From positions 682,001-746,000 of the forward strand of contig NZ_CP132957.1 in NCBI RefSeq assembly GCF_030863805.1: 64,000 bases of DNA, in the 5' to 3' direction. Shown piece by piece: positions 34,307 through 47,829 of the stretch; position 1 is the stretch's first letter; every line of letters starts with the position of its first letter. A program made the position numbers and the translations under genes. The notes beneath the pieces were generated by a model. That model saw nothing but the letters and a program-made list of their open reading frames with translations, searched no databases and was not told where the DNA came from. Origin of the DNA: Kineothrix sp. MB12-C1 (GTDB lineage: Bacteria > Bacillota > Clostridia > Lachnospirales > Lachnospiraceae).

Positions 34307-34858
34307 TTATATCTCATCATAAATCAGTGTTAAGATCATCTGCGCCGTTTCCACCATATTAGTGGCGCTGTCCATACTGCATTTCTGTATATAGCTATAT
34401 GCTTCCTCTTCTGTCAGATGGTTCCTTTCCATCAAAAGAAGTTTTGCATTTTTAATATAATTTTCATCCTGCTCGCTACGTATCTTTCCTTTTTTCTTTT
34501 CTTTTTTTAACCTTCGCCCAATTTGACGAAGTTGCATTTCCACGGTATTTATTAACTCAAAAGTACGAATTGGGATTGTCACGGCCATAACGCTTATTTC
34601 TGCAGAACTGACCACACTGGGAGAACCTATGAGCAATAGTTCAAAGAATTCGGGCAAAAGATCGTTCAGTTCTCCATAATACATATCTGGAAGCTTATAG
34701 CTGCTTATAACCAGTCCTGATAGGCCTTTATTGACTTCACTCAGGACTTGAGCGGCGGTCGTACATGCTACGGTATTTTCGAATCCATGCTGAATCAGTA
34801 TTTTCCGTATCTTTTTTGCATCTTCAATTTTCGGTAAAGCGACGATAATGATGCTCAT
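34307..34858 (-). CDS. nitR: ANTAR-domain antiterminator response regulator (NitR-like)
   Basis: The 183-residue protein has a degenerate receiver domain (~1-120; the region around LSGLVISSYKLPDMYYGEL lacks a clear acidic pocket), a coiled linker and a C-terminal ANTAR domain (ENYIKNAKLLLMERNHLTEE ... EAYSYIQKCSMDSATNMVETAQ), which binds RNA stem-loops to prevent termination. It lies 56 bases after glnA on the same strand, as NitR does in Clostridium saccharobutylicum, where glnA-nitR controls nitrogen genes. Candidate RNA targets are the glnN and pyrG leaders at 44021-44230. AGGAGG precedes ATG 34858. Confidence 0.85.
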   Translation of the reverse strand: MSIIIVALPKIEDAKKIRKILIQHGFENTVACTTAAQVLSEVNKGLSGLVISSYKLPDMYYGELNDLLPEFFELLLIGSPSVVSSAEISVMAVTIPIRTFELINTVEMQLRQIGRRLKKEKKKGKIRSEQDENYIKNAKLLLMERNHLTEEEAYSYIQKCSMDSATNMVETAQMILTLIYDEI

Positions 34859-34914: not shown

Positions 34915-36246
34915 TTATACACGGTACAAATACTGTTCAATTTCCCATTCAGAAACTTGCTCCATGTATCTTTCCCACTCTTTCTGCTTAGCTTTCAGGT
35001 AGCAGTTTACAAAAGTCTCCCCCAGAACAGCTTTTATAAGCGGATCTTTGGCGAATTCATCCAGAGCCTCGCTCAGATTTTCCGGCAGAGTATCGATACC
35101 TGCCTGCTTCTTTTCTTCTTTTGAGAATCTTCGAATATTCTCTTTCAGCTCCTTAGTTATCCGCATATTCTTTTCTATTCCATCCAGACCTGCTGCCAGA
35201 CATAAAGCAAATACCAGATATGGATTCGATGCGGAATCCGGGCTTCTCAGTTCCAATCTTGCCCCCTCTTCCCTCTGTGTCTGTACGCGAACGAGTGCCG
35301 TACGCTGCTTCGTTGACCAAGTAATATCAGAAGGTGCTTCGAATCCCGGTGCCAGTCTTTTATACGAGTTCACAAGAGGGTTACACACCGCAGTCATTCC
35401 TTTAATATGTGCCAGAATCCCTGCCATAAAGGAATACCCTTCTTTACTCAATCCAATCTCATCTTCGGCGTCTGATAAAATATTTTTTCCATCTTTCATA
35501 AGATACATATTGATATGCATACCGGAACCATTTACTCCTGCTTTGGGCTTTGGCATGAAGGTAGCGTGAAGGCCGTGTCTCTTAGCAATAGTACGCACTG
35601 CCACCTTGAAGGTCATTACTTTATCGGCTGTCTCTCGTACATCGGAAAATTGAAAATCAATTTCTTGCTGTCCCGGAGCGATCTCATGATGAGATGATTC
35701 GATTTCATATCCCATTTCTTCCAGTGTCAGCACCATATCTCTTCTGGCATTTTCACCCAAATCAACCGGGCTTAAATCCATATATCCTGCTTTTTCATGA
35801 GTTGTTGTTGTCGGCATTCCATTATCATCCGTATGAAAAAGGAAAAATTCACACTCCGGGTTTACCATCAACGTATATCCTGCACTCACAGCTTTTGCCA
35901 CAACCTGGTCGAGAATGAAACGCGGGCTCTCCTTATAAGCTGTACCGTCTTCCTGATAGATATCACAGATAAATCGGGCAACCTTCCCTTGTTGCGGCCG
36001 CCACGGTAGAATCGTAAAGGTTGACAGATCCGGATGCAGATACATATCAACTTCCTCATCGCGTATAGATCCTCCGATGGAGGACGCATCTATGACACAG
36101 CGGTTATCCATAGCCTTCTCCAGTTTAGTGGAGGGAATCGCAATGTTTTTTAACGTACCGAACATATCCGTAAACTGCAGGCGGATAAATTCCACATCCT
36201 CTTCCTCAGCCATACGCAGTATTGCTTCTCTCGTATAGTTCTCCAT
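34915..36246 (-). CDS. glnA: Glutamine synthetase type I
   Basis: This enzyme makes glutamine from glutamate, ammonia and ATP. From ATG 36246, with AGAGGAG eight bases upstream, it has 443 residues, the length of the short GSI-alpha type found in Firmicutes, which is controlled by feedback rather than adenylylation. Metal- and substrate-binding regions are visible (NPECEFFLF, HHEIAPGQQEIDF, NGSGMHINMYL, RLAPGFEAPS). It has its own near-perfect promoter and is followed by nitR. A second, unrelated type III enzyme is encoded at 44281. Confidence 0.97.
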   Translation of the reverse strand: MENYTREAILRMAEEEDVEFIRLQFTDMFGTLKNIAIPSTKLEKAMDNRCVIDASSIGGSIRDEEVDMYLHPDLSTFTILPWRPQQGKVARFICDIYQEDGTAYKESPRFILDQVVAKAVSAGYTLMVNPECEFFLFHTDDNGMPTTTTHEKAGYMDLSPVDLGENARRDMVLTLEEMGYEIESSHHEIAPGQQEIDFQFSDVRETADKVMTFKVAVRTIAKRHGLHATFMPKPKAGVNGSGMHINMYLMKDGKNILSDAEDEIGLSKEGYSFMAGILAHIKGMTAVCNPLVNSYKRLAPGFEAPSDITWSTKQRTALVRVQTQREEGARLELRSPDSASNPYLVFALCLAAGLDGIEKNMRITKELKENIRRFSKEEKKQAGIDTLPENLSEALDEFAKDPLIKAVLGETFVNCYLKAKQKEWERYMEQVSEWEIEQYLYRV

Positions 36247-36286: not shown

Positions 36287-36315
36287 ATTATAGCAATGGA
36301 CTTTCATATTGTCAA
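36287..36315 (-). promoter_or_regulatory. Consensus sigma-A promoter of glnA
   Basis: TTGACA (36315-36310) and TATAAT (36292-36287) are separated by exactly 17 bases. The predicted 5' leader is only about 35 bases and holds no terminator hairpin, unlike glnN and pyrG. Confidence 0.85.
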
Positions 36316-36333: not shown

Positions 36334-37818
36334 TTATGGGTTCGAATAGCCCATTAGCGAGGCATCTACCGCTTCCGCAGACTTTTGCCCTTCCCGAATC
36401 GCCCATACTACCAGAGACTGCCCTCTACGCACATCCCCTGCCGCAAAAATACCGGGGACACTAGTCTCATATTCCTCCGGCTTAGTCTCCACATTATCTC
36501 TCTCATTCACAGACACCTTAAAAGCTTCCGTCACATATTTCTCACTGCCCAAAAAACCAGCCGCAATCAGAACGAGCTGCGCATCAATGATCTCTTCGGA
36601 TCCTTCTACCGGCACCATGTTCATACGTCCCGTCTTTTCATCTTTTTTGCTCTCTAATTTCACAATCTTAGCTTTCTGAACATTTCCTCTTTCATCCTTT
36701 ATGAACTCTGTCACCGTAGTCTGATAAATCCTTGGATCATGGCCGAATACTTCAATTGCCTCCTCCTGGCCGTAATCCGTCTTGGAAACACGGGGCCACT
36801 GAGGCCATGGGTTATTGTCCGCTCTCGTGTCGGGAGCCTTCGGCATCATCTCGAGTTGGATTACGGATTTGGCTCCCAAACGAACCGCCGTACCGACACA
36901 ATCGTTTCCTGTATCGCCGCCGCCGATGACCAATACATGCTTTCCTTTGACCGGTGCGAGCTTCTGCGCCTTAAAATCAGGATCGAAAACGCTCTTTGTC
37001 ACCGCTGTGAGAAAATCTACCGCAAAAAAGATATGATTGGCATCTCTTCCGGGAACCTTCAAATCTCTCGGATTGGAAGCTCCGCAACAAAGTATAATTC
37101 TATCAAACTCTTTCTTCAGTTCAGAGACCTTTATGTCCTTACCTACATCCATCCCTGTTTTAAAAATAACACCTTCCTCCTCCATCAGCCGTACCCTTCG
37201 GTCAATTACCGCTTTATCCAGCTTCATGTTGGGGATTCCGTAGCGCAGAAGTCCTCCGATCCGGTCACTCCTTTCAAATACAGTTACCTGATGCCCTCTT
37301 CTGTTAAGCTGCTGCGCCGCTGCCAGACCGGCGGGACCGCTGCCGATTATGGCAACTTTCTTCCCTGTCCTTATCTCGGGAATCTGTGGCTTTACCCATC
37401 CCATTTCAAAAGCAGTTTCGATGATAGCATGTTCATTGTCCTTGATAGCTACCGGTTCTCCGTTCAGTCCGCAGGTGCAGGATGCCTCACAGGGAGCCGG
37501 ACATACTCTGCCGGTAAATTCCGGCAGGCTATGGGTCTTGGAAAGGCGCAGATAAGCCTGTTCCCAATTTCCTGTATATACCAAATCGTTGGTTTCCGGC
37601 ACCAGATTGTGCAGCGGGCATCCCAAAGCCATTCCTCCCAGCAGGATTCCTGACTGGCAGAACGGAACGCCGCATTCCATGCAGCGGGCTCCCTGCTTCT
37701 GTTGCTCTTCTTTGGATAAATACTTCTTAATTTCTCCAAAGTGTCCGATTCTTTGTCTCGGCTCCTCCTGCTTAGCACTTTCCCTCTTATACTCTAAAAA
37801 TCCTGTCGGCTTTCCCAT
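36334..37818 (-). CDS. gltD: Glutamate synthase small subunit
   Basis: The 494-residue flavoprotein passes electrons from NADPH to the large subunit. Visible are the two N-terminal Cys groups for 4Fe-4S clusters (CMECGVPFC; CPLHN, CPAPCEASCTCG), the FAD motif (GSGPAGLAAAQ) and NADPH motif (GGGDTGNDCVGTA). It starts two bases after the gltB stop, so translation is coupled. Part of pyrG-gltB-gltD. Confidence 0.97.
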   Translation of the reverse strand: MGKPTGFLEYKRESAKQEEPRQRIGHFGEIKKYLSKEEQQKQGARCMECGVPFCQSGILLGGMALGCPLHNLVPETNDLVYTGNWEQAYLRLSKTHSLPEFTGRVCPAPCEASCTCGLNGEPVAIKDNEHAIIETAFEMGWVKPQIPEIRTGKKVAIIGSGPAGLAAAQQLNRRGHQVTVFERSDRIGGLLRYGIPNMKLDKAVIDRRVRLMEEEGVIFKTGMDVGKDIKVSELKKEFDRIILCCGASNPRDLKVPGRDANHIFFAVDFLTAVTKSVFDPDFKAQKLAPVKGKHVLVIGGGDTGNDCVGTAVRLGAKSVIQLEMMPKAPDTRADNNPWPQWPRVSKTDYGQEEAIEVFGHDPRIYQTTVTEFIKDERGNVQKAKIVKLESKKDEKTGRMNMVPVEGSEEIIDAQLVLIAAGFLGSEKYVTEAFKVSVNERDNVETKPEEYETSVPGIFAAGDVRRGQSLVVWAIREGQKSAEAVDASLMGYSNP

Positions 37819-37820
37819 TC

Positions 37821-40800
37821 TTACTCAGCTCCTTTACTAAAATTCTCATTGAACGCTTCCAGCTGTGCCTGTTCCTGAGACATACCCTGCTCTTCCAATC
37901 TCGCTGCAAGAGTGGTCATTTTCTTATAATCCTCAGGAACAATTTTCTTGAATTTGGGCAGGTACTCCTGAAAATGCGCTAATATCTCCTGTCCCTTCTC
38001 AGAGCCGACAGCTTCCACATGAGCTGCAATCATATCATAAAGCTCCTGAATATCAGGCTTTGTCTCCACTTTCTCAACGAATACCATCTCTTTATTCAGA
38101 TTCTTATACAGATCATTTTTCTCATCCAGCACATAAGCGATACCTCCGCTCATTCCGGCTGCGAAGTTCTTTCCTATTCTGCCAAGCACAACTACACGTC
38201 CGCCGGTCATGTATTCGCAGCCATGTTCTCCTAAGCCCTCTACAACCGCATGAGCCCCTGAGTTACGGACTGCAAAACGCTCTCCTGCTACCCCACATAT
38301 GTAGGCGGTTCCGCTGGTAGCACCATAAAGTGCAACATTTCCTGTAATTACATTTTCCTCCGCTTTATAATTCCTCTCCTTCGGCGGATACACCACAATC
38401 TTTCCGCCGGACAAGCCCTTGCCCATATAATCATTACAGTCACCGCAAAGAGTCAAAGTGAGACCTTTCGGTATAAATGCGCCGAAGCTCTGTCCACCCG
38501 CTCCTGTACAGGAAACAGTAATGGTATCCTCCGGCAGCCCTTCCTTATGTTTTCTTGTAATCTCTGCGCCGAGAATTGTTCCGAATGCCCTGTCTGTATT
38601 GCTAACAGAAACTTCAAGTTTGGATCTCTTTCCCTTTTCCACTGCTGTTTTCAGCTCTTTGAGAAGTACATTTTCGTCCTTTGTCTCTTCCAGTCGGAAA
38701 TCATATTCCTGAGCAGGGTCAAAAGTAACTTTCGTGTCTGCTCCCACATAAGGATTATTTAAAACTGCGCTCAAATCCATCTGGAAAGCCATAGAACTTT
38801 CCGGAGTTTCCTTTTGCCTCAGCAGATCGGTACGCCCAACCATCTCATCCAATGTGCGTATACCCAGCTTCGCCATATATTCACGCAGCTCCTGCGCGAT
38901 AAAGCGCATAAAATTAATTACGTATTCCGGTTTCCCAGCGAAACGCTTTCGCAGCTCTGGATTCTGGGTTGCCACACCCACCGGACAGGTATCCAGATTA
39001 CAAACCCGCATCATAACACAGCCTACCGTCACCAGAGGTGCTGTCGCAAAACCGAACTCCTCCGCACCCAGCAAAGCAGCCACAGCCACATCACGACCGC
39101 TCATCAACTTACCGTCTGTCTCGATCATAACACGACTGCGAAGTCCGTTCTTCAAAAGTGTCTGATGAGTCTCGGCCAAACCGAGCTCCCACGGAAGCCC
39201 TGCATTATGAATCGAACTTTGAGGCGCTGCTCCGGTACCTCCATCATATCCTGAAATCAAAATAACCTGTGCTCCGGCTTTTGCGACACCGGCAGCAACC
39301 GTACCCACTCCGGCTTCTGAAACGAGCTTCACCGAAATCCTCGCATATTTATTTGCGTTTTTCAGGTCATAAATAAGTTCTGCCAAGTCCTCGATAGAAT
39401 AAATATCATGATGAGGAGGCGGTGAAATAAGACTTACACCTGGTGTGGAATGTCTCGTTTTCGCAATCCACGGATAAACCTTCTTAGCGGGCAGGTGACC
39501 GCCTTCACCGGGTTTTGCCCCTTGCGCCATCTTAATTTGAATTTCTTTTGCACTGACCAAATAGCGACTCGTAACACCAAAGCGTCCGGAAGCCACCTGC
39601 TTAATTGCGGAACAGCGATCCACAGCACCTCCTGCACTGTCCAGACGCTCATCGCTCTCACCACCCTCGCCGGCATTAGACTTACCATGCAGCATATTCA
39701 TGGCGGTAGCAAGTGTCTCGTGAGCCTCCTGGGAAATAGAACCATAGGACATAGCACCGGTCTTAAAACGCTTTACAATCTCATCCACACTCTCCACTTC
39801 CTCGATGGAGATTCCTTTTTCCGGGTATTTAAAGTCCATCAAGCTTCTCAGATAACCGCTCTGTTCCCTGTCCACCAGCTCCGTATACTGCTTGAACATA
39901 CTATAATCCCCATGCTTTGTGGACTCCTGCAGCATATGGATCGTCTGCGGATTATAGCGGTGTTTTTCTCCTTCACTTCGCAGCTTATGGATACCCATGC
40001 TTTCCAGCTCCAAATTGGTCGGCAGACCGAGGGGATCGAAAGCTTTGGAGTGACGCACATCCACATCATTAGCAATATCCTTTAAAGTAATGCCGCCCAC
40101 ACGGCTCACAGTTCCCGCGAAATATTTATCAATTACTTCTTCAGAGATACCAAGAGCTTCAAATATTTTCGATCCCTGATAAGACTGAATCGTAGAAATT
40201 CCCATCTTGGATGCAATTTTTACGATTCCGTGTAAAATAGCACTGTTATAGTCATCCACAGCCGCATAGTAATCTTTATCGAGCAGCTTACTGCCGATCA
40301 GTTCTTTTATCGTATCCTGTGCCAAATATGGATTGATGGCACAAGCTCCATATCCCAGCAGTGTTGCAAAATGATGCACCTCTCTCGGTTCCCCTGATTC
40401 CAGGAGCATCGCAAGCGAAGTTCTCTTTTTTGTCTTTACCAAATATTGATGTACTGCAGACACGGCCAGAAGAGATGGAATCGGCATATGATTCTCATCC
40501 ACACCCCTGTCGGAGAGTACAAGAATGTTTGCGCCATCCTTATAAGCCTTATCCACTTCCACAAACAGTCTGTCAATCGCCCGGTCCAGGCGTGTGCTTT
40601 TATAATACGCAATAGGAACTACGGCGACCTTAAATCCTTTCACTTTCATATTCTTAATTTTCAGCATATCCGTGTTGGTCAGAATCGGATTATTCACCTT
40701 CAATACCTGACAGTTCTCCGGCTGTTCCTTCAATAGGTTTCCATCTTTTCCTACATAGACTGTCGTACTTGTGACAATCTCCTCGCGGATAGCATCGATG

Positions 40801-42359
40801 GGGGGATTCGTCACCTGCGCAAACAGTTGCTTGAAATAATTGAATAAGGGTTGATGCTTTTGGGAAAGCACGGCAAGGGGGATATCCGTTCCCATGGATA
40901 CAATCTCCTCAGAACCGTTCAACGCCATATTATAAATGGACTTTCTATATTCCTCATAAGTATATCCGAATGTCTTCTGCATTCTCCGAAGCGCTTCTCC
41001 TTCGTACTCTTCCACTCGGATATTGGGAATCTTCAGATTATGCAGCTCCACCAAATTGCTATCCAGCCATTCTCCATAGGGTTGCTTTCCGGCATAGAGT
41101 TCTTTTAATTCATCATCATTGAAAATCTGCCCCTTCACCGTATCCACAAGCAGAATTTTCCCGGGATGCAAACGTTCCTTAAGTATAATGTCCTTCTCCG
41201 GTATAGGAATAACTCCCACCTCCGAAGCGAGAATTACATCACCATCCACCGTAATATAATATCTGGATGGACGCAGACCATTTCTGTCAAGAACTGCTCC
41301 CATCACATCGCCGTCAGAAAATAAAATAGAGGCAGGCCCATCCCAAGGCTCCATCATGGTCGCATAATATTGGTAGAAGTCTCTTCGTTCCTGAGAAAGT
41401 GTACTATTATTCGCCCATGGCTCCGGAATTGTAAGCATAACGCTCAACGGCAGATCCATTCCGTTCATCGTCAAGAATTCAAGCGTATTATCTAACATGG
41501 CGGAATCAGAACCTCTGGTATCCACGACCGGAAGCACCTTATGAAGCTGATCCTTCAGATAATCGGAAACCATAGTTTCCTCCCTTGCCAGCATTTTATC
41601 CGCATTTCCCCGTATCGTATTAATTTCTCCGTTATGTACGATAAAACGGTTGGGGTGGGCCCGTTCCCAACTTGGATTGGTATTAGTACTGAAACGAGAA
41701 TGTACCATAGCAATAGCAGATTCATAGTGAGCATCCTGCAGATCGGTAAAGAATGTGCGAAGCTGATTTACGAGAAACATCCCTTTATATACGATGGTGC
41801 GGCTGGACATGGACACCACATAAGTATTGTCGTTGCTCTGTTCGAATACGCGTCTGGCAATATACAGCCTTCTATCAAAGGAAAGTCCCTTTTCCACATT
41901 TTCCGGCTTCTTAATAAATGCCTGCACGATATTGGGCATACACTCTAACGCCTTATGTCCCAGCACCTCCGGGCATACAGGCACCTTTCGATATCCTAAG
42001 AACTCCAGCCCTTCCTTCTCCACAATAATCTCGAACATTTTTCTCGCCTGATTGTATTTCAATTCATCCTGAGGAAAGAACAGTACGGCAATTCCATATT
42101 CCCGTTCTCCCCCTATGGAGATACCTTCTTCTTGACATATCTTCGAAAAAAACTTATGAGAAATCTGAAGCAGGATTCCAACACCGTCACCCGTCTTTCC
42201 CTCTGCATCCTTTCCCGCCCTATGCTCCAGATTTTCCACAATCTTCAGAGCATTCTCCACGGTTTTATGGCTTTTAATACCTTTGCTATTCACCACAGCT
42301 CCGATACCACAGTTATCATGTTCAAATTGCTGTCGATACAATCCTTCTTCTATTCTCAT
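37821..42359 (-). CDS. gltB: Glutamate synthase large subunit
   Basis: The 1512-residue enzyme makes two glutamates from glutamine and 2-oxoglutarate. A 16-residue propeptide ([16 protein letters not shown]) precedes Cys17, the class II amidotransferase nucleophile. Then follow a central domain, the FMN-binding synthase domain ([19 protein letters not shown]), the 3Fe-4S motif ([15 protein letters not shown]) and the C-terminal GXGXG beta-helix. Its start overlaps the pyrG stop (ATGA), joining glutamate supply to CTP synthesis, which uses glutamine. Confidence 0.98.
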
Positions 42360-43978
42360 AATCGAAAACCTCTTTCTTTCTTATATTCAACGGCTGCACA
42401 CACAAGTCCCGCAAATAGCGGATGTGAATGATTGGGTCTGGACTTTAATTCCGGATGTCCCTGTGTTCCTATGAAGAACGGATGATCCGCAATTTCAATC
42501 ATCTCCACAATCCTGTCATCCGGGGAGAGACCGGCAAGAATCATCCCTCTCTCCTCTAACTTCTCCCTATAATTGTTATTCACTTCATAGCGGTGTCTGT
42601 GACGCTCCGAAATTTCCTCTGTTCCATATAATTCATAAGATCTTGTTCCTTTTTTCAACTTACAAGGATAGGAACCAAGTCTTAAAGTGCCTCCCAAGTT
42701 CTCCACCCCATTCTGTTCCGGCATAAGGTCAATGACAGGATGCGGCGTATTAGGATTTATCTCTATGCTGTCCGCATCATGATATGCGAGCACATTACGG
42801 GCAAATTCTATGATCGCCACCTGCATTCCAAGACAAATTCCCAAAAATGGAATGCGATTCTCCCTCGCATATTTTACTGCCAGAACCTTCCCTGCCGTTC
42901 CTCTTGTTCCGAAACCGCCCGGAACCAGTATCCCACTCAAACCGCCTAACAGTTCTTCATAATTATCTTCCGTAAGCAATTCGGAATCTATCCAGCGAAT
43001 CTTTACACTGGCATGACAGGCAATTCCACCGTGTTTTAATGCTTCCACAACACTTAAATAGGCATCATGAAGCTGTATATATTTTCCTACGACAGCTATT
43101 TCAACCTCCGCTTCCGGATGCCGCAGGTCATTCACCATACGCTTCCAATCTTCCAAATCAGGTTCCGGACATGGTAAACGAAGACATTCACACACTACCT
43201 GTGCCAAGTTCTCTCTCTCCATTGCCAAGGGTGCTTCGTAAAGATATTCTACATCCAAATTCTGCAATACATGGCTTTTTGGCACATTACAAAACAGGGC
43301 GATCTTATCTTTTATTTCAGAGGAGATGGGGTATTCCGACCGACAGACCAAGATATCAGGCTGCAGCCCCATTCCCTGAAGCTCTTTCACACTAGCCTGT
43401 GTAGGCTTTGTCTTTAATTCCCCCGATGCTTTCAAATAAGGAATCAGAGTAACATGAATTAAAATAGCATTCTCATGCCCCACATCATGCTGAAACTGCC
43501 GGATGGCCTCCAAAAAGGGCTGACTCTCAATATCGCCCACCGTACCTCCCACCTCGATGATTGCAATTCGTTCCTCATCCTGCGTCTTCGCCTGATAAAA
43601 ACATCCTTTTATCTCATTGGTAATATGCGGAATGACCTGTACCGTTCCTCCGCCGTAGTCTCCGCGGCGCTCTTTGTGAAGTACAGACCAATATATTTTA
43701 CCCGTTGTCACGTTGGAGTTCTTATCCAGACTTTCATCTATAAATCTCTCGTAATGTCCCAGGTCCAGATCCGTTTCCGTACCGTCATCTGTTACAAAGA
43801 CCTCCCCATGCTGAATCGGATTCATTGTGCCGGGATCTACATTAATATAGGGATCAAGTTTCTGCATCGTTACCTTATAACCTCTCGCCTTTAAAAGACG
43901 GCCGAGCGATGCTGCGGTAATTCCCTTTCCAAGTCCTGATACCACACCGCCTGTAACAAAAACATATTTTACTGCCAT
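42356..43978 (-). CDS. pyrG: CTP synthase
   Basis: From ATG 43978 ([15 protein letters not shown]), with AGGAGG eight bases upstream, the product has 540 residues. The N-terminal synthase domain shows [11 protein letters not shown], and the glutaminase domain the nucleophile Cys (FLGICLGMQ) and the His/Glu pair ([11 protein letters not shown]). It converts UTP to CTP with ammonia from glutamine. It is the first gene of pyrG-gltB-gltD, an uncommon pairing, and its leader carries an intrinsic terminator, pointing to attenuation of the operon. Confidence 0.97.
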
Positions 43979-44018: not shown

Positions 44019-44062
44019 AAAAAAGGCGTCGGATTCCCTAATATATAAGGGTAACCGACGCC
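44019..44062 (-). terminator. Leader terminator (attenuator) of pyrG-gltB-gltD
   Basis: On the minus strand GGCGUCGG (44062-44055) pairs with CCGACGCC (44032-44025), with an inner CCCU/AGGG stem, and six U follow (44024-44019). It lies between the predicted promoter and the pyrG start, 41 bases before the ATG, so it should stop most transcription unless an antiterminator forms. Confidence 0.88.
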
Positions 44063-44069
44063 ATTGCCG
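44056..44069 (-). promoter_or_regulatory. Hexaloop hairpin overlapping the pyrG attenuator (ANTAR-target-like)
   Basis: On the minus strand CGGC (44069-44066) pairs with GUCG (44059-44056), closing the loop AAUGGC. The loop has A at position 1 and G at position 4, the conserved loop bases of ANTAR target hairpins. Loop bases GGC and the 3' arm are also the first bases of the terminator stem, so the two structures exclude each other. The stem is short (4 bp, one G-U). Confidence 0.5.
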
Positions 44070-44093
44070 TTAATCGTAAAAAACCATAGAATT

Positions 44094-44122
44094 ACTATAT
44101 CTTATTTTTCCTTGTTTGTAAA
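44094..44122 (-). promoter_or_regulatory. Promoter of pyrG-gltB-gltD
   Basis: TTTACA (44122-44117) and TATAGT (44099-44094) are separated by 17 bases. Transcription should start near 44087, giving a leader of about 110 bases that includes the hexaloop hairpin and the terminator. It lies back to back with the glnN promoter. Confidence 0.65.
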
Positions 44123-44149
44123 TCCCCCAAATAATTTTTCCAAAAATAC

Positions 44150-44178
44150 TTGACAATTCTTTTTCTTCGTGTAATACT
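44150..44178 (+). promoter_or_regulatory. Promoter of glnN-purF
   Basis: TTGACA (44150-44155) and AATACT (44173-44178) are separated by 17 bases. Transcription should start near 44185, just before the hexaloop hairpin and the leader terminator. Confidence 0.65.
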
Positions 44179-44186
44179 CACTCCAT

Positions 44187-44202
44187 AAAGCAAAGGCGCT
44201 TT
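44187..44202 (+). promoter_or_regulatory. Hexaloop hairpin overlapping the glnN attenuator (ANTAR-target-like)
   Basis: AAAGC (44187-44191) pairs with GCUUU (44198-44202) and closes the six-base loop AAAGGC, with A at position 1 and G at position 4 as in ANTAR-binding hairpins. Loop bases GGC plus the 3' arm form the start of the terminator's 5' arm, the same arrangement as in the pyrG leader. The usual first hairpin of the two-hairpin ANTAR motif was not found upstream. Confidence 0.55.
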
Positions 44203-44230
44203 GGATGGACGCATCCGAAGTGCCTTTTTT
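44195..44230 (+). terminator. Leader terminator (attenuator) of glnN
   Basis: A 13-bp stem (GGCGCTTTGGATG with CATCCGAAGTGCC, two G-U pairs) with loop GACG is followed by six T. It lies 50 bases before the glnN start, so glnN-purF expression should need antitermination. Confidence 0.9.
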
Positions 44231-44280
44231 ATTTTGTAGAAAAGCACCCTGTTACATTTTTTTGAGAGGAGAATTATGAC

Positions 44281-46380
44281 ATGCCAAAAGATATCCCTAC
44301 TTTATACGGAAGCCTGGTTTTTAATGACAAAGTAATGCGCAACAAACTCCCGAAGGACGTATATGAAGCCCTCCGCAAGACAACTGAAAACGGGACCCAT
44401 CTGGAATTGGATATTGCCAATTCAGTAGCGGTTGCTATGAAAGAATGGGCGGTTGAAAATGGTGCAACACACTTTACCCATTGGTTCCAGCCTATGACTG
44501 GATTTACCGCTGAGAAACACGACAGCTTTATCTCTCCGGACGGAAATGGTGAGATTATTATGGAATTTTCCGGTAAGGAACTGATAAAAGGAGAACCGGA
44601 TGCATCCAGCTTCCCTTCCGGCGGCCTGCGTGCCACCTTTGAAGCGAGGGGATATACAAACTGGGACCCCACTTCACCGGCCTTTATTAAAGATCGTACT
44701 CTTTGTATTCCGACAGCCTTTTGTTCCTTTAGCGGCGAAGCACTCGATAAAAAGACGCCGCTTCTTCGTTCCATGGAGACCCTAAACAAAGAAGCGGTAA
44801 AAATGCTTCATCTTCTGGGAAATAAAGAGGTAACGAGTGTCAACACCACCGTAGGTCCTGAACAGGAGTACTTTTTGATACCGAAGGACTTATACAAGAA
44901 GCGCCGTGACCTTATTTTCACGGGAAGAACTCTGTTCGGTGCCCAGGCTCCGAAAGGTCAGGAAATGGAAGATCACTATTTCGGTGCTCTAAAGCCAACA
45001 GTTGCCTCTTACATGCACGATCTGGACGATGAATTGTGGAAACTTGGCATTCCCTCCAAAACAAAACATAACGAAGTTGCTCCCGCGCAGCATGAGCTTG
45101 CACCTATTTTCGATACTACCAACGTAGCTGTCGATCATAATCAGCTTGTCATGGAAGTCATGAAAAAGACGGCTGAAAAACATAACCTTGTCTGCCTATT
45201 GCATGAAAAACCTTTTGACGGTATTAACGGAAGCGGAAAGCACAATAACTGGTCCATCTCTACGAACACCGGAATAAACCTATTAGATCCCAGCAAAACC
45301 CCTGCGGAAAATACTCAGTTCCTTGTATTTCTGATGGCAGTCATTAAAGCAGTGGATGATTATGCGGATCTTATGAGAGTAGCCGCTGCCGGTGCCGGTA
45401 ACGATCATCGCCTTGGCGGCAATGAAGCACCTCCGGCAATCGTTTCCATTTTCATCGGGGATGAATTGGAAGCCATCTTAACATCGATTGAAGAGGATTC
45501 CTACTTTGGAAAAGCACATCCGGTACAGCTGGAAACCGGCGCACATGTACTTCCCCACTTCATTAAAGATACCACCGACAGAAACAGGACCTCACCATTT
45601 GCCTTTACCGGCAATAAATTCGAATTCCGTATGCTCGGCTCTTCCGCCTCCGTGGCAAACCCGAATATGGTACTGAACACTGCCGTAGCTGAATCACTGT
45701 CACAATTCTACGATGAACTGAAGGATACCACTCCGGAAGAGATGGAACATGCGGTGCACGAATTATTGAAGCGAGCAATCAAAAAACATAAAAAAGTAAT
45801 CTTCAACGGCAATGGCTATACCGAGGAATGGGTGAAGGAGGCCAAGGAAAGAGGTCTTTACAATCTGGTTTCCACTCCGGAGGCTCTCCCACATTTTATT
45901 GCTAACAAAAATGTGGATTTATTTACGAAACATGGCGTCTTTACGAAAGGAGAGATTTTCTCCCGCTATGAAGTTCTACTGGAAAACTATGCAAAGACAA
46001 TTGCCATCGAATCGAAAACCATGCAGGAAATGCTCGTAAAAGACTTCCTTCCTGCCGTTAACAACTATTCCGCTTCCATCGCTAAAAATGCTGCAGAGAA
46101 AAAGGCCTTAATTCCTAACCTCTCCACCGCTTCGGAAGAAACCCTTGTGAAAAGCCTGACCGAAGCTTCCAATGCCCTCTCTTTCAAGATAGAAGAACTG
46201 AAAGAAGTCACTATAGAAGCCGAATCGGTGAAGGATATACAAAAACGGGCCGATTTATTCCATGAAAAGGTTCTTCCTATCATGAACGAATTAAAAGAGG
46301 TAGCTAATAAGATAGAGACAGAAATTCCCGATATGCTGCTTCCTTATCCGACCTACGGCCAACTGCTATTTTACATCTAA
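44281..46380 (+). CDS. glnN: Glutamine synthetase type III
   Basis: The 699-residue enzyme belongs to the large GSIII group found in Bacteroides, cyanobacteria and Clostridia, unrelated in length to GlnA (443 residues) but with the same reaction. GSIII marks are the region FEARGYTNWDPTSPAF, the active-site strands GPEQEYFLI and KHNEVAPAQHELAPIF, and NGSGKHNNWSI. A GAGAGGAG ribosome site precedes ATG 44281. The gene is divergent from pyrG and has an attenuator leader. purF follows 12 bases later, so newly made glutamine and its use in purine synthesis are linked. Confidence 0.97.
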   Translation: MPKDIPTLYGSLVFNDKVMRNKLPKDVYEALRKTTENGTHLELDIANSVAVAMKEWAVENGATHFTHWFQPMTGFTAEKHDSFISPDGNGEIIMEFSGKELIKGEPDASSFPSGGLRATFEARGYTNWDPTSPAFIKDRTLCIPTAFCSFSGEALDKKTPLLRSMETLNKEAVKMLHLLGNKEVTSVNTTVGPEQEYFLIPKDLYKKRRDLIFTGRTLFGAQAPKGQEMEDHYFGALKPTVASYMHDLDDELWKLGIPSKTKHNEVAPAQHELAPIFDTTNVAVDHNQLVMEVMKKTAEKHNLVCLLHEKPFDGINGSGKHNNWSISTNTGINLLDPSKTPAENTQFLVFLMAVIKAVDDYADLMRVAAAGAGNDHRLGGNEAPPAIVSIFIGDELEAILTSIEEDSYFGKAHPVQLETGAHVLPHFIKDTTDRNRTSPFAFTGNKFEFRMLGSSASVANPNMVLNTAVAESLSQFYDELKDTTPEEMEHAVHELLKRAIKKHKKVIFNGNGYTEEWVKEAKERGLYNLVSTPEALPHFIANKNVDLFTKHGVFTKGEIFSRYEVLLENYAKTIAIESKTMQEMLVKDFLPAVNNYSASIAKNAAEKKALIPNLSTASEETLVKSLTEASNALSFKIEELKEVTIEAESVKDIQKRADLFHEKVLPIMNELKEVANKIETEIPDMLLPYPTYGQLLFYI

Positions 46381-46392
46381 GGAGTTTATCAC

Positions 46393-47829
46393 ATGGAATC
46401 AGAGTACGATTTGAAGATAAAAGAAGCTTGCGGCGTGTTCGGTATTTTCAATCCTAATGGAGAGGATGTAACATCTTCCATTTACTATGGACTTTGTTCT
46501 TTACAACACCGCGGTCAAGAATCCTGTGGTATTGCAGTATGTAATACAGGGGGGCCGAAAGGCAATATGAATTTCCATAAAGGAATGGGGTTGGTAAGTG
46601 AAGTATTCAAGGAGGAGATTCTCTCTACACTTCATGGCAATCTCGGTATCGGCCACGTCCGTTACTCCACCACAGGTGCTGCTGTTCTATCAAATGCACA
46701 ACCTCTTGTACTAAACTACATAAAAGGAACGCTTGCTCTGGCCCATAATGGGAACCTAATAAATACACAGGAACTCAGAAGTGAGCTGGAACGAGTAGGG
46801 GCAATCTTCCATACAACCACAGATTCAGAGGTAATCGCTTACTACATTGCCAGGGAAAGAGTTAACACCAACAATGTGGAGGAGGCAATTCTTCGTACGG
46901 CGAGAAAAATACGCGGAGCCTATGGGCTGGTCATTGCCAGCCCTCGCAAGTTAATAGGCGTCCGCGATCCCCTGGGTCTAAAACCTCTTTGCCTTGGCAG
47001 GCACGGCGCCTCTTACATCCTCGCTTCCGAGAGCTGCGCCCTTGCTGCGATCGGCGCCGAATTCATCCGCGATATCCGTCCCGGAGAAATTATTACCATA
47101 ACAGCAACAGGGATTACCTCTAACTGCCAGCTATATCAAGATACACACGCACACTGTATTTTCGAGTACATTTATTTTGCGAGGCTGGACAGCACACTCG
47201 ATGGCATTAATATCTATGATGCCCGTATTCATGCCGGAGCTGCCCTTGCCGCAGCCAATCCTGTGGAGGCCGATCTTGTAACCGGCGTTCCAGACTCCGG
47301 TATCCCTGCTGCGAAAGGTTATTCGGAAGCATCCGGGATTCCCTTCGCACTTACCTTTTATAAGAACAGTTATGTCGGAAGAACCTTTATTAAACCGACA
47401 CAAAAAGAGCGGGAATTCGGTGTACGGATGAAATTAAGTGTCCTAGAGTCTGTAGTACGCGGCAAGCGTATTATCCTTGTCGATGATTCCATTGTTCGAG
47501 GGACTACTATCGCAAACCTCATCTGTATGCTGAAAAATGCCGGAGCGAAAAGCGTTCATGTCCGCATCAGTTCGCCGCCTTTTCTATATCCTTGTTACTT
47601 TGGAACGGACATTCCCTCCAACAAACAGTTAATTGCTTCTTCCCATACGGTTGATGAAATCTGTACCATGATCGGCGCGGACTCGCTAGATTATATGAAG
47701 CTTGAAGCTTTGCAATCTATGGTAGGAGACCTCCCGTTATGCAAAGCTTGTTTTGATAACCATTATCCAATGGATATCTCAAGTTGCACGGAAAATAAGA
47801 ATAACGATTCAAGATCCCTTCGGCTTTGA
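46393..47829 (+). CDS. purF: Amidophosphoribosyltransferase
   Basis: The enzyme commits PRPP and glutamine to purine synthesis. It has 478 residues; a 12-residue propeptide (MESEYDLKIKEA) precedes the catalytic Cys13 of the glutaminase domain. The PRPP loop is ILVDDSIVRGTT. Cysteines around HAHCIFEY, YPCYFG and LCKACFD match the 4Fe-4S cluster type known from Bacillus subtilis. It is co-transcribed with glnN; other pur genes are not in the window. Confidence 0.95.
   Translation: MESEYDLKIKEACGVFGIFNPNGEDVTSSIYYGLCSLQHRGQESCGIAVCNTGGPKGNMNFHKGMGLVSEVFKEEILSTLHGNLGIGHVRYSTTGAAVLSNAQPLVLNYIKGTLALAHNGNLINTQELRSELERVGAIFHTTTDSEVIAYYIARERVNTNNVEEAILRTARKIRGAYGLVIASPRKLIGVRDPLGLKPLCLGRHGASYILASESCALAAIGAEFIRDIRPGEIITITATGITSNCQLYQDTHAHCIFEYIYFARLDSTLDGINIYDARIHAGAALAAANPVEADLVTGVPDSGIPAAKGYSEASGIPFALTFYKNSYVGRTFIKPTQKEREFGVRMKLSVLESVVRGKRIILVDDSIVRGTTIANLICMLKNAGAKSVHVRISSPPFLYPCYFGTDIPSNKQLIASSHTVDEICTMIGADSLDYMKLEALQSMVGDLPLCKACFDNHYPMDISSCTENKNNDSRSLRL

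Follow-up and report, generated by a model that had tools for sequence, protein, structure and literature searches.

Target RNAs of ANTAR proteins are described as leaders with two hexaloop hairpins in PMC8934654, PMC3369936, PMC3369931 and PMC8164766. The window analysed here, a stretch of 64,000 nucleotides, contains two divergent leaders in which only one such hairpin is visible, each overlapping an intrinsic terminator. The question raised by this locus is whether a leader with a single hexaloop can serve an ANTAR protein, or whether a first hairpin has escaped notice. We find that each leader is very probably an ANTAR-type attenuator of transcription, under the control of a protein and with one hexaloop, to which the product of the linked nitR-type gene would bind. 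Functionally, the most likely reading is an ANTAR-like antitermination of nitrogen assimilation, although formally the leaders lie outside the dual-hexaloop definition.

Gene arrangement

Between pyrG and glnN lie two divergent promoters, and behind each come a hexaloop hairpin and a terminator with sequence in common (Table 1). On the reverse strand, pyrG overlaps gltB by 4 nt, and the gaps gltB-gltD, gltD-glnA and glnA-nitR measure 2, 87 and 56 nt; with this spacing, the five genes are likely to form one operon. The nitR-type ANTAR gene is located 9 kb away after glnA, as the initial annotation stated, and probably belongs to this same run. It is the single match to PF03861 in the whole genome of 3.94 Mb (G000), of which the window occupies C1:682001-746000.

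Table 1. Positions of genes and leader elements in the window
Feature	Positions	Strand	Basis or remark
nitR-type ANTAR protein with pseudo-receiver	34307..34858	-	PF03861
glnA, type I glutamine synthetase	34915..36246	-	start placed at 36246
gltD, glutamate synthase small subunit	36334..37818	-	Fer4_20 + Pyr_redox_2; function by position and family
gltB, glutamate synthase large subunit	37821..42359	-	NCBIfam NF008730
pyrG, CTP synthase	42356..43978	-	
pyrG intrinsic terminator with U run	44019..44062	-	sequence and fold
pyrG antiterminator hairpin (putative), CGGC[AAUGGC]GUCG, 4-bp stem	44056..44069	-	scan, fold, relatives
pyrG promoter, TTTACA (44122-44117)-N17-TATAGT (44099-44094)	44094..44122	-	promoter match
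glnN promoter, TTGACA (44150-44155)-N17-AATACT (44173-44178), TG-extended	44150..44178	+	promoter match; same layout in relatives
glnN antiterminator hairpin (putative), UAAAGC[AAAGGC]GCUUUG	44186..44203	+	A1 and G4 in loop; covariation
glnN intrinsic terminator with U run	44192..44232	+	5' arm = hairpin loop + 3' arm
glnN, type III glutamine synthetase	44281..46380	+	Pfam GSIII_N, E 7e-81
purF-type amidophosphoribosyltransferase, 12 nt 3' of glnN	46393..47829	+	GATase_7 + Pribosyltran

The glnA-nitR part is preceded directly by an extended promoter that matches at 12 of 12 positions (TTGACA-N17-TATAAT, 36287-36315, reverse strand), and the start of the glnA open reading frame at 36288 overlaps a promoter -10, which is why the gene start is placed at 36246. 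No terminator is called in the 40 nt 5' of the glnA start in the window, nor is an attenuator called there. In four other loci (L010, L155, L156, L160), a hexaloop attenuator is seen before glnA, for example GAAC[AAGGAC]GTTC or GAAAC[AAGGGC]GTTTC. Among named records, the best matches of GlnN come from Lachnospiraceae drafts, namely uncultured Blautia (78%) and uncultured Eisenbergiella (73%), so that the window probably stems from a member of this family.

Structure of the two leaders

In the glnN leader, the hairpin begins 7 nt past the -10, at or near the predicted +1. Its 6-bp stem folds with -4.5 kcal/mol, moderately better than shuffled sequence (z -2.2; as good in 6 of 200 shuffles), and the terminator, called at 44192-44227, with -25.8 kcal/mol. 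The leader (44186-44227, forward strand) is strongly conserved in relatives. Tandem pairs of hexaloop attenuators apparently precede glnN in four loci (L054, L079, L059, L038).

The evidence is weaker for the pyrG leader. Its hairpin begins 24 nt past the -10, so that about 17 nt of RNA would precede it from the predicted start; the proposal that both promoters lead at once into their hairpins therefore holds for glnN but not for pyrG. The hairpin folds with -4.1 kcal/mol (z 0.37), which is no better than shuffled sequence, and for this reason the case for it rests on conservation in relatives. By eye the stem is extendable as UAAC/GUUA with one bulged G, an extension absent from the computed fold. 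The pyrG terminator, called at 44062-44025, folds with -23.3 kcal/mol. In both leaders the terminator is far stronger than the hairpin, so the hairpins would need a protein or other factor to be favoured.

The pyrG leader was compared with those of ten relatives. The scan finds a hexaloop with G4 and a terminator in six of the ten (L002, L008, L010, L030, L154, L156) as well as in the window, and related hairpins are visible by eye in L004 (TGAC[GAGGGC]GTCA), L009 (CGAC[AAAGGG]GTCG) and L014 (GAC[GAAGGT]GTC); in L013, no related hairpin is found by scan or eye. The distance from the called promoter to the hairpin is 9 nt in L030, 12 nt in L154, 24 nt in the window and 33 nt in L010, while L002 and L008 lack a good promoter call before pyrG and L156 has too little upstream sequence. 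Both leader loops of the window have A1 and G4, the two bases that ANTAR recognition is known to require. However, A1 is not strict in pyrG-type leaders, since the loops of L002 (GAAGGC, by scan), L004 (GAGGGC) and L014 (GAAGGU, both by eye) start with G.

In Bacillus subtilis, pyrG is controlled by a CTP-sensing attenuator based on reiterative transcription, with the transcript start GGGC; that pyrG has an attenuator there too is what speaks for the same control here, but we reject it as scarcely credible because the start region given by promoter prediction is AUGGUUUUUU, not GGGC, and because relatives too have a G4 hexaloop before pyrG.

Conservation of the element

A scan of both strands of the 64-kb window for an A1/G4 hexaloop that overlaps a terminator gives four matches: the glnN and pyrG leaders, with stems of 6 and 4 bp, and two sites with 3-bp stems. 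The divergent hairpin and terminator structures and their positions, as first described, are thus confirmed by sequence and scans. An Rfam scan of the window gives no match above the gathering score. A DNA-level search with the intergenic region in 16 genomes from the genus recovers nothing but the window and a single weak match in G009; what is conserved is therefore the element and not the spacer as a whole.

For the comparison among relatives, 80 loci were collected by one scan with the GlnN protein. Most of the 28 listed regions upstream of glnN contain TTGACA, 16-18 nt, a TATACT-like -10 and a short gap, and then continue with AAAGC[AAAGGC]GCTTT, a variable terminator loop and a T run; L006 and L021-L024 are exceptions. 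The 80 loci and the window were also scanned with no loop rule, for any hexaloop (stem of at least 5 bp) that overlaps a terminator. This yields 93 hexaloop hairpins, 47 directly behind a promoter and 46 without an adjacent promoter. Among the former, A1 is present in 47/47 and G4 in 45/47; among the latter, A1 is present in 30/46 and G4 in 25/46.

A loss of the hexaloop from terminators that persist, which according to the initial annotation would speak against the switch, was checked for, and the idea withstands this check. When terminators within 500 nt before glnN are picked with no condition on hairpins, 52 are obtained, from 49 of 79 loci, and 43 of the 52 carry an A1/G4 hexaloop (stem of at least 4 bp), as against 36 of 290 control terminators, which still include true elements before other genes. 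The remaining nine comprise L012 without G4, L026 with G1, L014 with a 3-bp stem, L041 and L064 with AAAGGC but no stem, and L060, L067, L076 and L081 with nothing similar or a different register. In 30 loci, L021-L024 included, there is no terminator within this distance of glnN. The exceptions to the loop rule are AAGAGC in L012 and G1 in L026, in three pyrG leaders and at one site in the own genome.

Elsewhere among Clostridia (L027, L028, L029, L034, L037, L039, L068, L078 and others), a region matching parts of GltB is preceded by a divergent hexaloop leader of another stem family. On this side the stems are GAAC/GTTC or AATGAGC/GTTCATT, as against, for example, CAGC/GCTG for glnN. The choice of stem may be gene-specific.

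Covariation of hairpin and terminator

Covariation was evaluated on a plain MAFFT alignment (A1) of 40 elements. In the hairpin stem 89.9% of cells are paired, a value inflated by the origin of all 40 elements in scans that demand a stem of at least 4 bp. The number of stem cells changed on both sides is 34, compared with 11.5 in shuffled alignments and at most 9 in slid controls, and the covariation score is 0.456 against 0.215. Two further measures do not exceed the shuffles: 5 pairs show a double change against 4.0 (136 of 500 shuffles), and 9 pair types occur against 9.4 (411 of 500). Covariation of the stem is therefore seen by three of five measures, but not by these two counts. In the terminator, 98.6% of cells are paired and 82 are changed on both sides against 18.5, and all five measures exceed the shuffles. 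Since hairpin and terminator both stay paired and covary, the same bases serve two structures that are both maintained. Note that the loop rule (47/47 and 45/47) and the count of 43/52 terminators are independent of the stem selection in the alignment.

Stem types are swapped with pairing kept, for example AAAGC/GCUUU, ACAGC/GCUGU, UUUGAC/GUCAAA and AAUGAGC/GUUCAUU. These changes bear on the alternative that the near-palindrome at the predicted start site is a DNA operator of a nitrogen repressor or activator, in which case the hairpin would be incidental. The position of the near-palindrome would suit an operator. However, the stem sequences vary widely while pairing is kept, G-U wobbles occur in the stem (8 of 40 at one pair and 11 UG at another), the loop and 3' arm also serve as the 5' arm of the terminator, and the element co-occurs with ANTAR proteins (see below). 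The wobble pairs and the covariation disfavour an operator, and we give it very little weight.

One hairpin at the promoter

The space upstream of the hairpin is mostly occupied by a promoter. In 91 of 138 distinct elements, a promoter matching at least 10 of 12 positions has its -10 ending 5-13 nt before the hairpin, compared with 0.8 in shuffled upstream sequence; 29 loci in this count were supplied by a model with the promoter built in, and the figure from the scan with no loop rule is the cleaner one.

This arrangement leaves little room for the possibility that these are ordinary dual-hexaloop ANTAR leaders in which the first hairpin is hidden by an imperfect stem or by a start further upstream. 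Such a possibility would agree with published target sets, which consist of dual stem-loops with linkers in the excerpt of PMC8164766. In the 32 nt upstream, a hexaloop with G4 and no other loop condition is found for 9 of 162 elements where 4.0 are expected; this roughly two-fold excess is still near chance. However, judged by linker length and promoter distance, seven of these nine overlap the called -10 or sit upstream of it (those in L016 and L147 do not), and with the A1/G4 rule a second hexaloop in the 45 nt upstream is found in 3 of 138 elements against 2.05 expected. A hidden first hairpin is thus not found above a near-chance level, in agreement with the early impression of one hairpin per leader.

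As a positive control, loci with response-regulator ANTAR genes and eutP from the same order were scanned with a looser terminator score of 12 instead of 16. Classical dual hexaloops with linkers of 5-6 nt are found in 3 of 14 elements against 0.46 expected, so that the control rests on three leaders: GAUUACAC[AACGGC]GUGUAAUC-6 nt-GAGC[AAUGAG]GCUC in L163 (G025), AACAC[GAUGAG]GUGUU-6 nt-GAGC[AUUGGA]GCUC in L165 (G032), and GAAAACAC[AACGCA]GUGUUUUU-5 nt-AGGC[AAAGUA]GCCU in L181 (G134). All three lie near ANTAR genes of the response-regulator type; eutP adjoins L163 and L181, and L165 has no strong eutP match. Most eutP loci (L172-L176, L179) show no dual hexaloop within their 3.4 kb. On this evidence, we consider a hidden first hairpin improbable.

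Measured against the published definition of an ANTAR target, the leaders of the window show mutual exclusion of the last hairpin and an intrinsic terminator, a loop with A1 and G4, and an ANTAR protein encoded in the genome; two hexaloops (P1 and P2) joined by a short linker are not present.

Genes behind the element

A covariance model was trained mostly on glnN leaders, and no amtB was identified among its training genes. Searches with the model covered the order sample and, a second time, nine genomes from it; they gave 55 best-hit loci (L096-L150), and 52 of these contain a recognisable hairpin and a reading frame. The gene was taken as the longest reading frame starting within 600 nt, the hits are the best-scoring ones, and near-identical species are included. 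According to Pfam, the 52 loci lead to 18 ammonium transporters, 14 type III glutamine synthetases and one of type I (GlnA), four class-II amidotransferase/GltB proteins, four asparagine synthases, two AsnA, two glutamate dehydrogenases, one PyrG, one SAICAR synthetase (PurC) and five others (ATP-grasp, binding protein, sodium symporter, DAO oxidoreductase and AraC regulator). One gdhA-type gene is counted twice, since L127 and L142 are tandem elements before it. The genes behind the element, which the model finds before amtB, glnN, gltB, glnA, gdhA, asnA and asnB, are mostly those of nitrogen assimilation.

In the own genome, the model gives 12 matches at E<=10. The candidates are glnN (4.9e-8), pyrG (0.010), amtB (0.005) and a gene with a PPDK_N domain (0.0038). 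The amtB element has a 3-bp stem, and its best promoter matches at 8 of 12 positions. The site before the PPDK_N-domain gene (L085, G000:C1:1072505-1072562, reverse strand) shows TTGACA-N18-TACAAT and the loop GAAGGC, with G1. The other eight matches (E of 0.06 and weaker) were dropped; two were inspected and show no convincing element.

Co-occurrence with ANTAR proteins

In a sample of 245 genomes of the order, an ANTAR protein is found in 199 and the element, at E<=0.01, in 146; the element search uses strict filters and rough E-values, and both counts are assumed to cover one and the same set of genomes. At E<=1e-3, an ANTAR protein is present in 116 element-positive genomes and absent from 2, while the element-negative genomes divide into 83 with and 44 without (Fisher p 2e-12, ignoring phylogeny). 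At E<=0.01, the corresponding numbers are 139 and 7, and 60 and 39. In a sample of 195 genomes of the class, which shares some genomes with the order sample, they are, at E<=1e-3, 66 and 10, and 41 and 78 (p 1.5e-13, again ignoring phylogeny). ANTAR genomes with no element at 1e-3 amount to 83 of 199 in the order, and G010 of the same genus is among them. The element lies within 25 kb of an ANTAR gene in 26 of the 54 genomes that have a strong match and a listed ANTAR position. The original idea of a one-hairpin ANTAR switch is supported by this linkage, by the co-occurrence, which has exceptions, and by the predominance of nitrogen-assimilation genes behind the element.

The exceptions are 12 element-positive genomes (E<=1e-3; 2 of the order and 10 of the class samples) with no detectable ANTAR protein, some of them with strong matches (G288, 5e-7). 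A direct search with NitR in these 12 gives only a doubtful match, in G419. They suggest that another RNA-binding regulator or a metabolite-sensing machinery might read the hexaloop, and that co-occurrence with ANTAR proteins might reflect a shared lifestyle. However, five of them (G288, G347, G419, G091, G096) have congeners with an ANTAR protein, so that missing assembly is possible, and 8 of these 12 assemblies are drafts in at least 100 contigs. Furthermore, A1 and G4 match the known ANTAR rule, and dual leaders of the same order have similar loops (AACGGC, AATGAG). A reader other than an ANTAR protein has, in our estimation, a slim chance.

The NitR protein

The C-terminal domain of NitR matches the ANTAR family PF03861 with 52 bits. 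By sequence the protein matches EutV (6wsh), Rv1626, NasR and AmiR, and the fold of its AlphaFold model (pLDDT 89, pTM 0.62) matches EutV-RNA, Rv1626 and AmiR. There is no Pfam match to a receiver domain, though the model has the receiver fold. The phospho-acceptor position carries Ser in place of the Asp of two-component regulators of the EutV type. Among 20 ANTAR loci across families, glnA is directly beside the ANTAR gene in 16; the phospho-acceptor position, read by eye, is S, G, N, T or V in the 12 of these 16 glnA-linked relatives that were readable, and Asp is kept in the four loci with no glnA (L161, L163, L165, L170).

EutV contacts RNA through Tyr164, stacked on G4, and through Met172. 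NitR of the window reads EEAY..SM and has Tyr and Met at these positions (pairwise alignment, numbering by eye). The glnA-linked relatives that were aligned have Tyr, Phe or His at the position of Tyr164, plus Met. Residues R142, K143 and K147 of EutV correspond to E, N and N in NitR, with a Lys one position off (pairwise alignment, by eye). In the glnA-linked ANTAR proteins of L151-L169, the motif AHRYIxKxxM recurs, and 13 of 15 aligned relatives have His at the position of Tyr164, with Tyr in L156 and the window and Phe in L154.

Since the receiver domain of NitR has no phospho-acceptor, the signal probably arrives through a protein partner or a ligand; NitR is AmiR-like in this respect, with phosphorylation unlikely. 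By analogy with glutamine synthetase and a Bacillus regulator (excerpt of PMC6316151), GlnA, the product of the adjoining gene, is a candidate for this partner.

Proposed mechanism

On the preferred reading, a single-hexaloop attenuator under ANTAR control, RNA polymerase would start the glnN transcript at the hairpin or a few bases upstream of it. With nothing bound, the weak hairpin would yield to the stronger terminator, and transcription would end before the gene. When nitrogen is short, NitR would keep the hexaloop hairpin closed and the terminator blocked, and glnN-purF and pyrG-gltBD (possibly with glnA-nitR) would be transcribed. Because both hexaloops are required in vivo in Enterococcus faecalis (excerpts of PMC3369931 and PMC8934654), a leader with one hexaloop may fail unless NitR differs from EutV; EutV itself is reported to bind each hexaloop alone.

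We tentatively suggest, at somewhat less than even odds, that single-hexaloop antiterminators anchored at the promoter form a widespread class, to which these leaders belong, and that in these Clostridia a pseudo-receiver ANTAR protein needs just one hairpin because it is the first RNA to be made. The 'recruitment hairpin' required by the EutV model would then be replaced by the position at +1, or by a contact between NitR and the polymerase as it initiates. If so, one order would contain two ANTAR sub-mechanisms, one with response regulators and dual hexaloops and the other with pseudo-receivers and one hexaloop for nitrogen. The candidate attenuators form a natural conserved class, with covariation, a linked regulator and a coherent nitrogen gene set that covers ammonium uptake, both glutamine synthetases, GOGAT, GDH, asparagine, and CTP and purine synthesis. 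These Clostridia may rely on the element as a main nitrogen switch, and the class gives a direct test of the role of the first hairpin.

Comparison with known systems

The AmiR/amiE system of Pseudomonas controls amide catabolism through a dual hexaloop leader, and to our knowledge a glnA neighbour is no part of it. AmiR, like NitR, is a pseudo-receiver ANTAR protein, and its signal comes via the partner AmiC (excerpt of PMC3369936). The NasR/nasF system of Klebsiella, in which the A1/G4 rule was first found (excerpt of PMC3369936), likewise controls nitrogen genes; it differs in having a NIT sensor domain and two hairpins.

The EutV/eutP type, known from Enterococcus and others (excerpts of PMC3369931 and PMC8934654), shares with the leaders described here an A1/G4 hexaloop with a short stem and a last hairpin that overlaps an intrinsic terminator, and EutV, like NitR, is an ANTAR protein with a receiver-type domain and a coiled coil. 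Instead of P1 and P2, the leaders of the window have one hexaloop, with the hairpin at or near the predicted +1, and they are associated with a pseudo-receiver with no phospho-acceptor and with genes of nitrogen assimilation.

Non-dual ANTAR targets are already on record: in the excerpt of PMC8934654, the sRNA EutX has an extra single hexaloop, targets in Mycobacterium tuberculosis do not always follow the dual motif, and work on single hexaloops is called for. In the parts of the literature compared, they do not appear as transcription attenuators, and in the open PMC literature we found no report of single-hexaloop ANTAR attenuators before Clostridial nitrogen genes.

A close precedent is NitR of Clostridium saccharobutylicum, whose antitermination was reportedly described by Stutz in 2007. 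According to the excerpt of PMC6316151, this protein is reported to act by antitermination on GS/GOGAT genes under nitrogen limitation. Beyond that system, glnN (GSIII) and pyrG-gltBD are candidate targets in the window, as are amtB, asnA/B and gdhA in relatives.
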